From: Ideonella sp.
Lineage (GTDB): Bacteria; Pseudomonadota; Gammaproteobacteria; Burkholderiales; Burkholderiaceae_C
DNA: 64,000 nucleotides
Direction: 5' to 3'
Assembly (NCBI GenBank): GCA_015075165.1
Contig: JABTUY010000005.1
Span: 186,001-250,000 of the forward strand
Shown: in pieces, positions 25,926 to 48,849 of the stretch
How positions within the stretch are numbered: the first letter of the stretch is position 1
How the letters are laid out: every line of letters starts with the position of its first letter
Program-made: the position numbers and the translations under genes
The notes under the pieces: model-generated
What the model saw: the letters and a program-made list of their open reading frames with translations, nothing else
Told to the model about the DNA's origin: nothing
Database searches by the model: none

Positions 25926-26888
25926 ATGTCTGCCACCGTTGCCGAAGCCGTGATGCTGCCCGTACCGCCGCGGCAGCGGCGCGCACGCGCCGTCGAGGGC
26001 CGCCTGCTGCACGATCGTGCGGCAGGGGCGCGCACTCAGGGCACGTCGGCGGTCGACGCAGCCGATGTCGCGAGCGAACCCGACACCGGCGCACTGGTCG
26101 AGCGCGCGCTCGCCACGTTGCTCGGCGGCACTGCTGGCGATCGCGGGAGTGATCGCGGGGGCGATCGCGGGGGTGATCGCAACAGTGCGCGCAACGGGCA
26201 TCGGCCGCGCGAGGCCGCGCCGCGTGTGCGCGAAGCCGGCGCAGCGCGTACACCGGCGGCCGCGTTCGCATCGGCCATCGCCGCCTTCGCGCGCGTGCGC
26301 ACGCTGCACGCAGGCGCGGCTGTGTTCACCCGCACCGAGCGCGCGCGTTCGGCTGTGCTGCTGGCGCGCGGCGATGTCGCACTGGGCCTGCGGCGCGACG
26401 GCCAGTGTTTCGAGGTCGAGCGCATCGCGCATGCGCCGGCGTGGCTCGACCTGGCCACCGTCTGGCTCGGTGCGCCGCATGCGATCGATGCCTGCGCGCA
26501 CGGCGACTGCGTCGTCGTCGAGCTGCCGCTCGAACCGCTGCGCGAGCATCTGGCCGAGCAGCCCGCGCTGGCGCTGCGCGTGATCCAGGGCCTGGCACGC
26601 GAACTGCAAGCGCGCAGTTCGCAGGCCTCGGGCCTGATCCACCAAAGCGCGCCGGCGCGGCTGGCGCATTGGCTGCATGACCATGCCAGGGCATCGGTGT
26701 CGCAACCGGGTGGCTGGGTGGTCGAGCTGTCCGAACGCAAGCGCGACCTCGCCGCGCAACTGGCGATCGCACCGGAGACGCTGTCGCGTCTGCTGCGCCG
26801 GCTCGCCGACGACGGCGTGATCGACGTCGCCGGCTACACCGTTCGTCTGCGCGACCGCGACGCGCTGGAGCGCATGGCGAGGGTCTAG
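25926..26888 (+). CDS. CRP/FNR-family transcriptional regulator with a long N-terminal extension
   Basis: A 320-residue regulator from ATG 25926. Residues about 118-225 form a cyclic-nucleotide-like beta-barrel sensor and about 232-318 the winged helix-turn-helix. The recognition helix APETLSRLLRRLADDGVI carries the E-x2-S-R pattern that reads TTGAT half-sites in FNR/DNR proteins. No FNR-type N-terminal cysteine cluster is present, so it is not an oxygen-sensing Fe-S FNR; a DNR/NarR-like or haem-dependent sensor fits better. The first ~115 residues are low complexity and include four near-repeats of 12 bases (26139-26186). The real start may be further downstream. Confidence 0.82.
   Translation: MSATVAEAVMLPVPPRQRRARAVEGRLLHDRAAGARTQGTSAVDAADVASEPDTGALVERALATLLGGTAGDRGSDRGGDRGGDRNSARNGHRPREAAPRVREAGAARTPAAAFASAIAAFARVRTLHAGAAVFTRTERARSAVLLARGDVALGLRRDGQCFEVERIAHAPAWLDLATVWLGAPHAIDACAHGDCVVVELPLEPLREHLAEQPALALRVIQGLARELQARSSQASGLIHQSAPARLAHWLHDHARASVSQPGGWVVELSERKRDLAAQLAIAPETLSRLLRRLADDGVIDVAGYTVRLRDRDALERMARV
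26139..26186 (+). repeat. 12-bp tandem repeat, four copies, in the FNR-like gene
   Basis: Four consecutive 12-base units beginning GATCGC (third and fourth bases of the tail vary) encode the run GDRGSDRGGDRGGDRN. The repeat preserves the frame. Confidence 0.7.
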
Positions 26889-40847: not shown

Positions 40848-41204
40848 ATGACCCCGATCGCCGTCGTCACCACTGTCACCAACCGTGCCGAGGCCGTGGC
40901 GCTGGCACGCGCGCTGGTGCAGCAACGGCTCGCCGCCTGCGCACAGATCTCCGAGATCGAGAGCGTCTACCGCTGGCGCGGCGAGGTGCAGCAGGGGCCC
41001 GAGTGCCGCATCGTGCTGAAGACCACGCGCGAGCGCTATGCGCAACTGGAGCGCACGATTCGCGAGCTGCACCCGTACGAACTGCCGGCGATCCACGCAC
41101 TGGCGTTCGATGCGATCGACGCGCCCTATGCCGAGTGGATCGCGCAGGGCTGCGCGGAACCGGGCGACACTTCCTGCCAACCTTCCGACGGAGCGAACCG
41201 ATGA
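40848..41204 (+). CDS. cutA: Divalent-cation tolerance protein CutA
   Basis: A 118-residue CutA1-family protein, a very stable trimer linked to copper tolerance and signalling-like roles. Typical motifs: VVTTVTNRAEAVALARALVQQRLAACAQI, ESVYRWRGEVQQGPECRIVLKTT and the ELHPYELPAIHAL block. It overlaps the start of the ClpP-like gene by four bases (ATGA), so the two are co-translated. No strong Shine-Dalgarno is visible before its ATG. Confidence 0.93.
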   Translation: MTPIAVVTTVTNRAEAVALARALVQQRLAACAQISEIESVYRWRGEVQQGPECRIVLKTTRERYAQLERTIRELHPYELPAIHALAFDAIDAPYAEWIAQGCAEPGDTSCQPSDGANR

Positions 41205-41797
41205 GTTCTGAGGCCCCTGCCAACCCCGATGCCGCACCGCCGGCCGAGCGCCTAGGCATGCTCGAGGAGCGGCTGTCGTTCCAGTCGCGCTTCGTACTGG
41301 TGTTCGGCGAGATCGACGACAAGCTCGCGCTCGTCACCTGCCGCCGCCTGCTGGCGCTGTCGGAGCAATCCGATGCGCCGATCACGATGCTGGTGTCGTC
41401 GCCGGGCGGTCACGTGGAGTCGGGCGACGCGATCCACGACATGATCCGCTTCGTGCGCGCACCGGTCACCACGGTGGGCTCGGGCTGGGTCGCCAGCGCC
41501 GGCTGCCACATCTTCCTGGCGCCGCCGAAGGAGCGCCGCGTCTGCCTGCCCAACACGCGCTTCATGATCCACCAGCCGGCCGGCGGCGCCGGCGGCCAGG
41601 CCACCGACATCGCGATCCAGGCCAAGGAGATCCTGCGCACGCGCGAGCGCATCGCCAGCGTGATCGCGCGGCAGACCGGCAAGGCGCAGGCGACCGTGCT
41701 GGCCGACATGGAGCGCGACTTCTGGATGAGCGCCGACGAGGCGGTGGCCTACGGCATTGTCTCGCGCGTGATCGAGCGGCAGAAGGATCTGGCCTGA
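41201..41797 (+). CDS. ClpP-family serine protease paralogue
   Basis: A 198-residue ClpP/crotonase-fold protease. The catalytic triad can be read by alignment to ClpP: Ser in GWVASAGCHIF (E. coli ASMGA), His in NTRFMIHQPAGG, Asp in MERDFWMSADEA. Homologues form barrel proteases working with Clp ATPases. It differs from housekeeping ClpP in the C-A-G around the Ser and the N-terminal ~30 residues, and no clpX or clpA lies next to it, so it is probably a second, specialised copy. GGAG is 7-10 bases before ATG 41201. A tandem repeat array starts one base after its stop. Confidence 0.85.
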   Translation: MSSEAPANPDAAPPAERLGMLEERLSFQSRFVLVFGEIDDKLALVTCRRLLALSEQSDAPITMLVSSPGGHVESGDAIHDMIRFVRAPVTTVGSGWVASAGCHIFLAPPKERRVCLPNTRFMIHQPAGGAGGQATDIAIQAKEILRTRERIASVIARQTGKAQATVLADMERDFWMSADEAVAYGIVSRVIERQKDLA

Positions 41798-41798
41798 C

Positions 41799-42206
41799 GG
41801 CAGGCGCAAGGCCCCTTCCGGGCCCTTGCGTCCGGCCTCATGCCCGGCCGCTTGTATCGCGGCCGGTCCTTCGGCAGGCGCAAGGCCCCTTCCGGGCCCT
41901 TGCGTCCGGCCTCATGCCCGGCCGCTTGTATCGCGGCCGGTCCTTCGGCAGGCGCAAGGCCCCTTCCGGGCCCTTGCGTCCGGCCTCATGCCCGGCAAAC
42001 TTGTATCGCGGCCGGTCCTTCGGCAGGCGCAAGGCCCTTCCGGGCCGCCGTCCGGCCTCATGCCAGCCGCTTGTATCGCGGCCGGTCCTTCAGGCAGGCG
42101 CAGGCCCTTCCGGGCCCTTGCGTCCGGCCTCATGCCCGGCCGCTTGTATCGCGGCCGGTCCTTCGGCAGGCGCAAGGCCCCTTCCGGGCCCTTGCGTCCG
42201 GCCTCA
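41799..42206. repeat. 74-bp tandem repeat array, about 5.6 copies, with paired hairpins
   Basis: Copies begin at 41799, 41873, 41947, 42022, 42093 and 42165 (the last is 42 bases). Copies 1 and 2 are identical, copy 3 has one extra base with a changed CGGCAAAC, copies 4 and 5 carry small deletions. Each full unit holds two hairpins: CGCAAGG/CCTTGCG around a CCC..GGG core, and a perfect CCGGCCGC/GCGGCCGG stem with loop TTGTATC. The array fills the gap between two convergent genes; its last partial copy ends at the stop codon of the minus-strand gene. It is not a CRISPR, as there are no unique spacers. Confidence 0.9.
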
Positions 42207-42692
42207 GCGCTTGATCGACGACACCGAAACGGTGCCGCCCAGGCTCACGCGCCGTGGCGGGTCGACCGCGCCGGGCTGCGCCCAGACGTCGGGCCGTTGC
42301 GCCGCCTGACTGCGCGCTTGTGGCGTCATGCGCCTGGCGTGCAGCTTGTAGAGGCGCTCGATCTCGTAGCGGATGCGCGGCGTGAAGCCCTTGCGGCCGC
42401 CGCGATGGTCGACCATCAGGTCGGTCAGCAGCCGGTCGATCACGTGCAGATGCTCCCAGTTCACCGCGATGCGGTTGGCGATGCGCGGGTAGTGGCGGCA
42501 CAGGTGCTTCGGGTGCACGCTGTTCGGAATCGTGCGCAGCCACGCATGGGTGTGGCTTTGCATCACCACGTCGTCGTCGATCAGCGGCGCACGCGAGTGC
42601 GACCAGTCGTCGGAACGATAGATCCGCACCGGCCGGTTCAGCAGGTTCGACAACAGGCTGCCTGCACGCGCGAGGGGAGATTTCAAGCTCAT
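42204..42692 (-). CDS. Hypothetical protein (162 aa) beside the tandem array
   Basis: A 162-residue basic soluble protein. Recognisable segments are VRIYRSDDWSHSRAPLIDDD, HTHAWLRTIPNSVHPKHLCRHYPRIANRIA and VDHRGGRKGFTPRIRYEIERLYKLHARR; no known domain was identified. The compact, charge-patterned sequence supports a real gene. ATG 42692 is chosen; the frame continues upstream in less plausible sequence, and no clear Shine-Dalgarno is seen. The stop codon is formed by the last three bases of the tandem repeat array. Confidence 0.6.
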   Translation of the reverse strand: MSLKSPLARAGSLLSNLLNRPVRIYRSDDWSHSRAPLIDDDVVMQSHTHAWLRTIPNSVHPKHLCRHYPRIANRIAVNWEHLHVIDRLLTDLMVDHRGGRKGFTPRIRYEIERLYKLHARRMTPQARSQAAQRPDVWAQPGAVDPPRRVSLGGTVSVSSIKR

Positions 42693-42984
42693 GGTCAGTC
42701 GAACGGTTGGCGATCCGCTGGTCCCGCAACCTGACAAGGCCTGCGAACCAAACGACCGTCAGCGTACGGACCGCGCGCCGGCTGCGCAGCCCCGAGAACA
42801 TGGGGAAATCGTGCCGGTTTGGCCGATCGCGCACTGCTGTGGAGCCGCGCTCGCATCGCTCAACGTGCAAATGCCGCAACCGCGCCCGAAACGGCGCGTG
42901 CCCACCCCACCGTTTGCGGGCCGCGCGCGGTGCCACGCCGAGAATCGTCCGCGTCCCGGCCCCAGCGGGCACGGCGCGTTCACG

Positions 42985-47323: not shown

Positions 47324-48790
47324 ATGTCGACCACCGCCGAAACCACCGCCGCCCCCGCCTACCCGAACGTGCAGCTGTTCATCGCTGGCCAATGGCGCGA
47401 CGGCGGCGAGAGCAAAACCTTGGCGGTGCACGATCCGGCCACCGGCCGCGCGGTGGGTCGGGTGGCGGTGGCCACGCGCGCCGACCTCGACTCGGCTTGC
47501 GCGGCGGCGCTGCAGGGCTTCGACGCCTGGCGCAAGGTGCCGGCGTTCGAGCGCGCCAAGACGATGCGAGAAGCCGCGCGCCTGCTGAAGGAGCGCGCCG
47601 GCGGCATCGCGCGCTGGATGACGCAGGAGCAGGGCAAGCCGCTGGCCGAGTCGAAGGCCGAGATCCTGATGGCCTGCGACATCATCGAGTGGTTCGCCGA
47701 GGAAGGTCGGCGTGTGCAGGGCCGCATCCTGGCGCCGCGCCAGGCCGGCGTGCTGCAGCAGGTGCTCAAGGAGCCGGTCGGCCCGGTGGCGGCGTTCACG
47801 CCGTGGAACTTCCCGATCAACCAGGTGGTGCGCAAGCTCAGCGCGGCGCTGGCCACCGGCTGCTCGATCATCGTCAAGGCGCCTGAGGAAACCCCGGCAT
47901 CGCCGGCCGAACTGATCCGCGCGTTCGCCGACGCCGGCGTGCCGGCCGGGGTGGTCAACCTAGTCTACGGCAGCCCAGCCGAGATCTCGCAGTACCTGAT
48001 CCCGCACCCGGCGATCCGCAAGATCACGTTCACCGGCTCCACCGTGGTCGGCAAGCAGCTCGCTGCGCTGGCCGGGCAGCACATGAAGCGCGTGACGATG
48101 GAGCTCGGCGGCCACGCGCCGGTGATCGTCGCCGCCGACGCCGACATCGCGAAGGCGGCCAAGATTGCCGGCACCGCCAAGCTGCGCAACGCCGGTCAGG
48201 TGTGCATCTCGCCGACGCGCTACCTGGTGCACAACGACGTGCGACAGGCGTTCATCGACGCCTTCGTCGCGGTGGCCAAGGGTGCCAAGCTCGGCCACGG
48301 CCTGGAGGCCGGCACGACGCTCGGGCCGCTGGCCAACCCGCGGCGCCTGAGCGCGATGCAGAAGATCACCGACGATGCGCTGACCCGGGGCGCCAGCGTG
48401 GCCGCCGGCGGCAAGCGCGTGGGCAGCGACGGCAACTTCTTCGAGCCGACGATCGTCGTCGACGCGCCGCTGGACAGCCTGCTGCTCACCGAGGAGCCGT
48501 TCGGCCCGATGGCGTCGGTGCGCGGCTTCGACCGGCTCGAAGACGCGATCGCCGAGGCCAACCGGCTGCCGTGGGGCCTCGCCGCGTATGCGTTCACGAC
48601 GTCGCTGAAGACCGCGCACGAGCTGACGCACGGCATCCAGGCCGGCATGCTGTGGATCAACCAGGCCGCGGCGCCGTGGGCCGAGATGCCGTTCGGCGGC
48701 GTCAAGGACTCCGGCTACGGCTCCGAGGGCGGCCCCGAGGCGCTCGAGGCGTACCTGAACACCAAGTCGGTGGCGGTGCTCAACACGTAG
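47324..48790 (+). CDS. gabD: Succinate-semialdehyde dehydrogenase-type aldehyde dehydrogenase
   Basis: A 488-residue NAD(P)-dependent aldehyde dehydrogenase, the GabD class that oxidises succinate semialdehyde to succinate in 4-aminobutyrate degradation. Catalytic features: [14 protein letters not shown] (Asn), [11 protein letters not shown], the general base Glu in [10 protein letters not shown], the nucleophile Cys in [12 protein letters not shown] and [10 protein letters not shown]. The [13 protein letters not shown] opening is typical of GabD. ATG 47324 has GGAG nine bases upstream. It stands alone, flanked by two paralogous small minus-strand genes. Other short-chain semialdehydes remain possible substrates. 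Confidence 0.88.
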
Positions 48791-48849
48791 CAAACGAAAT
48801 CGGCGCCCGCGAAGGCAGCAAACGAAGTCGGCGCCCGCGAGGGCGCCGA
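48789..48849. terminator. 28-bp duplication with terminator hairpin after gabD
   Basis: Two tandem 28-base units (48789-48816 and 48817-48844, two differences) begin at the gabD stop codon. The second forms a perfect 9-bp stem TCGGCGCCC (48828-48836)/GGGCGCCGA (48841-48849) with loop GCGA, between convergent genes. Confidence 0.6.

Follow-up and report, generated by a model that had tools for sequence, protein, structure and literature searches.

The whole space between the stop codons of two convergent genes in the window (the complete 64-kb stretch of DNA that was analysed) is occupied by a tandem array of two-hairpin units. On the plus strand it is bordered by a gene for a ClpP-like protease subunit and on the minus strand by an ORF of 177 aa for which Pfam and NCBIfam searches gave no match, and in both respects the initial annotation described the neighbours correctly. 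The features are:

41201-41797, plus strand: ClpP-like protease subunit gene, 198 aa, stop codon TGA at 41795-41797; PF00574 with E 2.2e-58, NF009205 above cut-off
42204-42737, minus strand: ORF of 177 aa, of unknown family, conserved in the relatives G001 and G004
41798-42206, minus strand: whole array, five full units followed head to tail by a 43-nt part (Tandem Repeats Finder, covariance model)
42204-42206, minus strand: TGA stop codon of the 177-aa gene, the opening 3 nt of unit 1
42133-42206, minus strand: unit 1, 74 nt, canonical, its TGA being the stop of the minus-strand gene
42165-42202, minus strand: hairpin 1 of unit 1 with the basal helix, conserved C-U mismatch
42136-42158, minus strand: hairpin 2 of unit 1, CCGGCCGC-GATACAA-GCGGCCGG
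42061-42132, minus strand: unit 2, 72 nt, 5 differences from unit 1
41989-42060, minus strand: unit 3, 72 nt, 8 differences, hairpin 2 partly broken
41915-41988, minus strand: unit 4, identical to unit 1
41841-41914, minus strand: unit 5, identical to unit 1
41798-41840, minus strand: unit 6, a 43-nt part with hairpin 1 alone, abutting the stop of the ClpP-like gene

Tandem Repeats Finder reports a period of 74, 5.6 copies (as in the assembly), 92% matches and a score of 723 at 41798-42206, far in excess of all other tandem arrays in the window. Elsewhere the window holds a 12-bp tandem repeat, GATCGCGGGGGT, in 3.5 copies (26139-26180) and a 28-bp repeat in 2 copies (48789-48844). The array sits in a 406-nt gap, one of the largest among the 55 gaps between convergent genes in a 450-kb sample of contig C24 of this genome (G000), on which, together with searches, the survey rests. 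The natural phase of the units is that of the minus strand, on which each one opens with TGAGGCCGGACG (a TGAGGCC start). Units 1, 4 and 5 and the 43-nt part are identical and the diverged units 2 and 3 lie mid-array, an arrangement that does not fit the earlier view of two identical first copies, diverged later ones and expansion at one end.

Both hairpins are strongly predicted, and the description of a tandem two-hairpin array between convergent genes stands. The predicted fold of a single unit has an energy of -45.0 kcal/mol on the plus strand (z -4.3) and of -49.7 kcal/mol on the minus strand (z -5.5), values that no shuffle equals, and for the whole array the prediction yields z -6.5 (plus) and z -8.7 (minus) against dinucleotide shuffles. 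The unit is not unique: an identical 74-nt copy is present on a different contig of this genome (G000:C1:900491-900564) and related units are found elsewhere. A covariance model made from ten units detects the element at about 20 places in this genome and also in each of the five genus mates searched. The scaffold pattern TGAGSCCGGAC, 18-32 bases, GCCTGSCGAAGG occurs at more than 119 places in named genomes, mostly of Rubrivivax, Roseateles, Pelomonas, Piscinibacter and their allies. Among 399 genomes drawn evenly over the order it is present in four and a reversed control pattern in none, a figure distinct from the prevalence in the carrying clade, which such a draw hardly covers. A narrow DNA pattern, too specific to the subtype of the window, had no match in the genome contigs. 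No Rfam family exceeds its gathering score for the element, and nothing on the family turned up in Rfam or in the openly accessible literature that was searched.

The members of the family share the layout TGAG-SCCGGAC-[hairpin 1]-GCCTGSC-GAAGG-[hairpin 2]-GGC(A) over about 70-80 nt, the exact 3' end being GGC or GGCA depending on the subfamily, and variation is lowest in the TGAG tag, in the GAAGG linker and in the basal helix, which carries the C-U mismatch. The paired S positions of the scaffold are complementary in 83 of 84 elements. In an ungapped 48-nt set the outer S-S pair is complementary in every case, positions in the stem of hairpin 1 show up to 5 pair types, and shuffles and shifted registers pair far less than the true register. 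An alignment of 65 distinct sequences (A2), which was fitted to the model and so favours structure in a way that the ungapped set does not, has 17 of 22 pairs varying on both sides and 92.8% of cells paired, values matched by 0 of 500 shuffles and by no slid version. Each unit of the array belongs to a dispersed, covarying two-hairpin family, and the array is not a one-off duplication of a terminator.

The tag reads TGAG, or rarely CGAG, in all three classes of the scaffold. Class A, the type of the window, is anchored at the stop codon; in class B the scaffold stands behind a CCCCTCGGGGG hairpin about 50 nt past the stop, and in class C it is part of a longer composite repeat. One larger composite repeat recurs in many species (loci L110, L113, L117, L089 and L087, with the element at position 1501 of the oriented locus) and consists of a stop, a stretch of about 50 nt that contains a CCCCCTCGAGGGGGC-type hairpin, the TGAG two-hairpin scaffold and GCGGCCTGCAAGGC; it often precedes a codirectional gene. 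Another, longer intergenic repeat is present in this genome in six copies (G000:C22:204614, C1:460966, C12:441557, C12:900799, C12:870552 and C23:289415), whose similarity reaches well past the scaffold on both sides; there the scaffold is embedded after CGGTAG and its TGAG is not a stop codon.

Several arrays join identical as well as mixed subtypes head to tail and in a single orientation, a mixed one lying at G000:C25:265606-265896. The anticipated copy-number variation among relatives was seen at another locus, where the same gene, presumably of DUF494/smg type, is followed from position 1501 onwards by three near-identical units in G003 (L044) and by one degenerate unit in G001 (L055).

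The element is placed with single-base precision. A TGA was scored as a stop codon if it ended a reading frame with coding-like GC content at the codon positions, with frames not taken from annotation. By this measure the first TGA of the element is the stop codon of a gene in 19/21 class A copies of the genus and in 18/19 copies of the Roseateles subtype, always at offset 0, and the element opens at a stop codon in 37 of the 40 copies of both sets. The base preceding this TGA is C in 20 of the 21 genus copies and in all 19 Roseateles copies, compared with 49% of the TGA stops of this genome. At the 3' border a fixed-rule count gives CTGA in 14/19 Roseateles copies, followed by a variable base; the 3' TGA is missing in 4/19, and in the subfamily of this genome the border is ATGA. 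Where CTGA stands at both borders it could represent a duplicated target or an end of the element.

Relatives that lack the element served as the control. At 28 orthologous gene ends without the element, meaning without a convincing match to the covariance model, the stop codon (TGA, TAG or TAA) is the same in 21 and lies within one codon in 26. The 177-aa gene itself has the same stop codon in G001 and G004, neither of which has the array. The stop of the minus-strand gene does lie within the repeat, as stated earlier; the array did not create it, because relatives without the array stop at the same codon. A supply of the stop by the array was rejected on the basis of these two orthologues, which likewise do not support the suggestion that changes in array length could alter the end of the protein. 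A second array, at G000:C1:900377-900607, behaves differently: its minus-strand gene ends about 13 codons later than the G004 orthologue, and in G001 and G004 the gene pair lacks the element and has other, unrelated hairpins. The C-terminus of this protein did change around the array, counter to a silent insertion.

A clean filled site is in Roseateles toxinivorans (G595, L407), which reads ...CGTAAC TGAGCCCGG...GGC TGAGAACC... and continues into a U-tract terminator, AAAGCCCGC...GCGGGCTTTT. Its empty orthologues (G617, G618) read ...CGCAAC TGA, followed after about 20 nt by an equivalent terminator. The extra DNA at L407 begins at C^TGA and has another TGA on its far side; it looks as if the element had come with a stop codon and pushed the existing one aside. 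The element thus has dispersed copies as well as sites that are empty in relatives, as expected of a non-autonomous mobile element.

We therefore interpret the array, with a probability of about two in three, as the local head-to-tail multiplication of one dispersed, non-autonomous, REP-like element of the Rubrivivax-Roseateles group (Burkholderiales) that inserts at C^TGA. The element would enter between the C and the TGA of a CTGA stop and provide a new TGA at the same place, while the TGA of the host would end up on the far side; with its own TGA in the same place, the insertion would be silent for the protein. A further copy, oriented like the first, could then enter at each displaced TGA, and the repeated use of displaced TGAs together with ordinary slippage would lead to head-to-tail arrays, mixed subtypes included. 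By analogy with REP/TnpA-REP and IS200/IS605, the chemistry is likely to be single-strand cutting and joining at CT sites that flank the hairpins.

The search for a mobilising enzyme was directed at the Y1 transposase (PF01797) alone and covered this genome, 201 genomes of the family and 25 element-bearing genomes. PF01797 had no match in G000, G001 or G004, and Y1_Tnp is missing from several of the 25 element-bearing genomes searched; in other genomes none of 60 Y1 loci is directly flanked by the element. Mobilisation as a RAYT-driven REP was rejected on the basis of the absence of Y1 from these three genomes and the lack of adjacency in the others searched. Single-copy Y1 genes of Roseateles-type genomes (L300, L301, L304, L306 and L299) have an AT-rich motif similar to AATTGACTCTGACCCCATT downstream, which suggests that the motif represents the terminal repeats of those genes themselves.

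How far the element discriminates stop codons from other CTGA sites bears on the nature of its target. Of the CTGA sites in the contig sample, 170 are stops, compared with 202 at other intergenic positions; convergent gaps contain 45 stops versus 24 others, and the same-strand sites up to 100 nt downstream of genes comprise 170 stops versus 52 others. If insertions were tolerated only at CTGA in 3' regions, 65-77% of copies would be expected at stops, a share that the observed 37/40 exceeds moderately (P 6.5e-5 to 0.0085). With so high a share expected under selection, a C^TGA target combined with selection may suffice, and the excess lends slight weight to a specific recognition of stop codons by the element. 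True recognition would be the more novel explanation but is the weaker of the two. In its boldest form it would imply a class of mobile elements that recognise stop codons (C^TGA, sense orientation), swap in a stop of their own and leave the old one behind, served by an enzyme outside the REP/RAYT pairing and building arrays by using the displaced stop as the next landing site; we offer this tentatively, as a doubtful extension of the insertion model.

Among the alternatives, the one that fares best is that of the initial annotation, a multiplied bidirectional terminator or another 3'-end-forming structure whose units are kept because their hairpins stop or trim convergent transcripts. Hairpins are indeed enriched between the convergent genes of the contig (mean best stem 6.6 versus 5.0 shuffled), a convergent stop lies within about 410 nt in 13/21 genus copies, a higher proportion than that of convergent ends among the gene ends of the contig, and the unrelated hairpins at the C1:900 pair in G001 and G004 imply that some hairpin may be useful there. 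Since convergent genes of this genome are commonly separated by hairpins that lack a T-tract, the element may protect 3' ends or limit convergent transcription. The features of a terminator proper are nevertheless missing: the longest T run in the array is 2, a terminator scan found 0 terminator-like sites in it, and hairpin 1 stands directly at the stop codon, where in E. coli the terminating ribosome represses adjacent hairpin terminators (PMC4824070). The Roseateles element lies upstream of a U-tract terminator that the element-free orthologues possess too, and as this terminator is kept in the filled site and in both empty orthologues the element need not be one. Other copies have no convergent gene nearby, and selection for a hairpin alone leaves the sequence identity across loci unexplained. 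We consider a multiplied terminator unlikely.

A REP-type regulator linked to translation would act differently, its hairpins stalling terminating ribosomes from less than 15 nt beyond the stop and thereby lowering expression of the upstream gene. By analogy with E. coli, where REPs that lie no more than 15 nt from the stop are reported to stall ribosomes and lower translation (summarised in PMC12306157), the start of the element at the stop itself in nearly all scored copies would suit such a role; survival at silent sites alone would yield the same position, however, and the element-bearing genes share no evident function. This regulatory role may be called improbable. Similarly poor prospects attach to a spread that involves no transposition, in which ectopic gene conversion and slippage distribute units whose stop positions were inherited from an old repeat at gene ends. 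Identical units at two loci of one genome, arrays of exact period and the negative transposase search (PF01797) in this genome all fit, and a movement of units between loci by gene conversion could occur and counts against the insertion model. Yet the clean empty site and the orthologues that lack the element, for the window gene as for several other genes, point to repeated gain at genes whose flanks are unrelated, where conversion would lack the homology it needs. That the array serves as a source of small RNA or as a binding array for a (nucleoid) protein is very improbable, for even though the stable conserved hairpins and the invariant single-stranded tag and linker could in principle bind a protein, the array has no detectable promoter-like site and no Rfam match, and nothing demands a role in trans.

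The element is close to several known systems without being identical to any of them. REPs are dispersed, intergenic and close to the 3' ends of convergent genes (PMC3733652). Like those of E. coli, Pseudomonas and Stenotrophomonas, the element has an imperfect palindrome that contains a conserved mismatch and is preceded on its 5' side by a short single-stranded tag, and it too is dispersed, short, palindromic and mostly extragenic. The E. coli TnpA-REP cuts at CT beside a hairpin (PMC8266576), and the borders of the element, which read CTGA, likewise contain CT. Unlike REPs of the GTAG and CGTC superfamilies it carries the tag TGAG, it has two different hairpins in direct order rather than inverted pairs, and its first TGA is exactly the stop codon; unlike RAYT-mobilised REPs it occurs here in a genome that lacks a Y1 gene, and elsewhere it adjoins no such gene. 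The element may work in the manner of a REP without belonging to the GTAG or CGTC families. BIMEs are similar in being arrays of palindromic units between genes, sometimes of mixed types, whereas the units described here are all head to tail, in an orientation set by the gene, and never alternate. With miniature elements derived from IS200/IS605 the element shares two hairpins close to its ends, insertion in a set orientation next to a short target and the lack of terminal inverted repeats; it differs from them in that the genome has no recognisable TnpA and the target includes a stop codon. A GC-rich hairpin past the gene is the feature in common with intrinsic (Rho-independent) terminators, which are set apart by the missing U-tract, the abutment to the stop and the separate downstream terminator in relatives.

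Once transcribed, the array would form a series of stable hairpins directly past the stop, which could shield the 3' ends of mRNAs and impede convergent transcription, a putative function that is not needed to explain the pattern. The finding carries a caution, in that a hairpin between convergent genes is not always a terminator. While most small bacterial repeats are said merely to lie near gene ends, the position of this one is exact to the base. An element with its own stop codon, together with relatives that are free of it, provides a test of how a parasite-like repeat spreads without harm to proteins, and allows one to ask whether hairpins at the stop codon affect ribosomes or the 3' ends of mRNAs.
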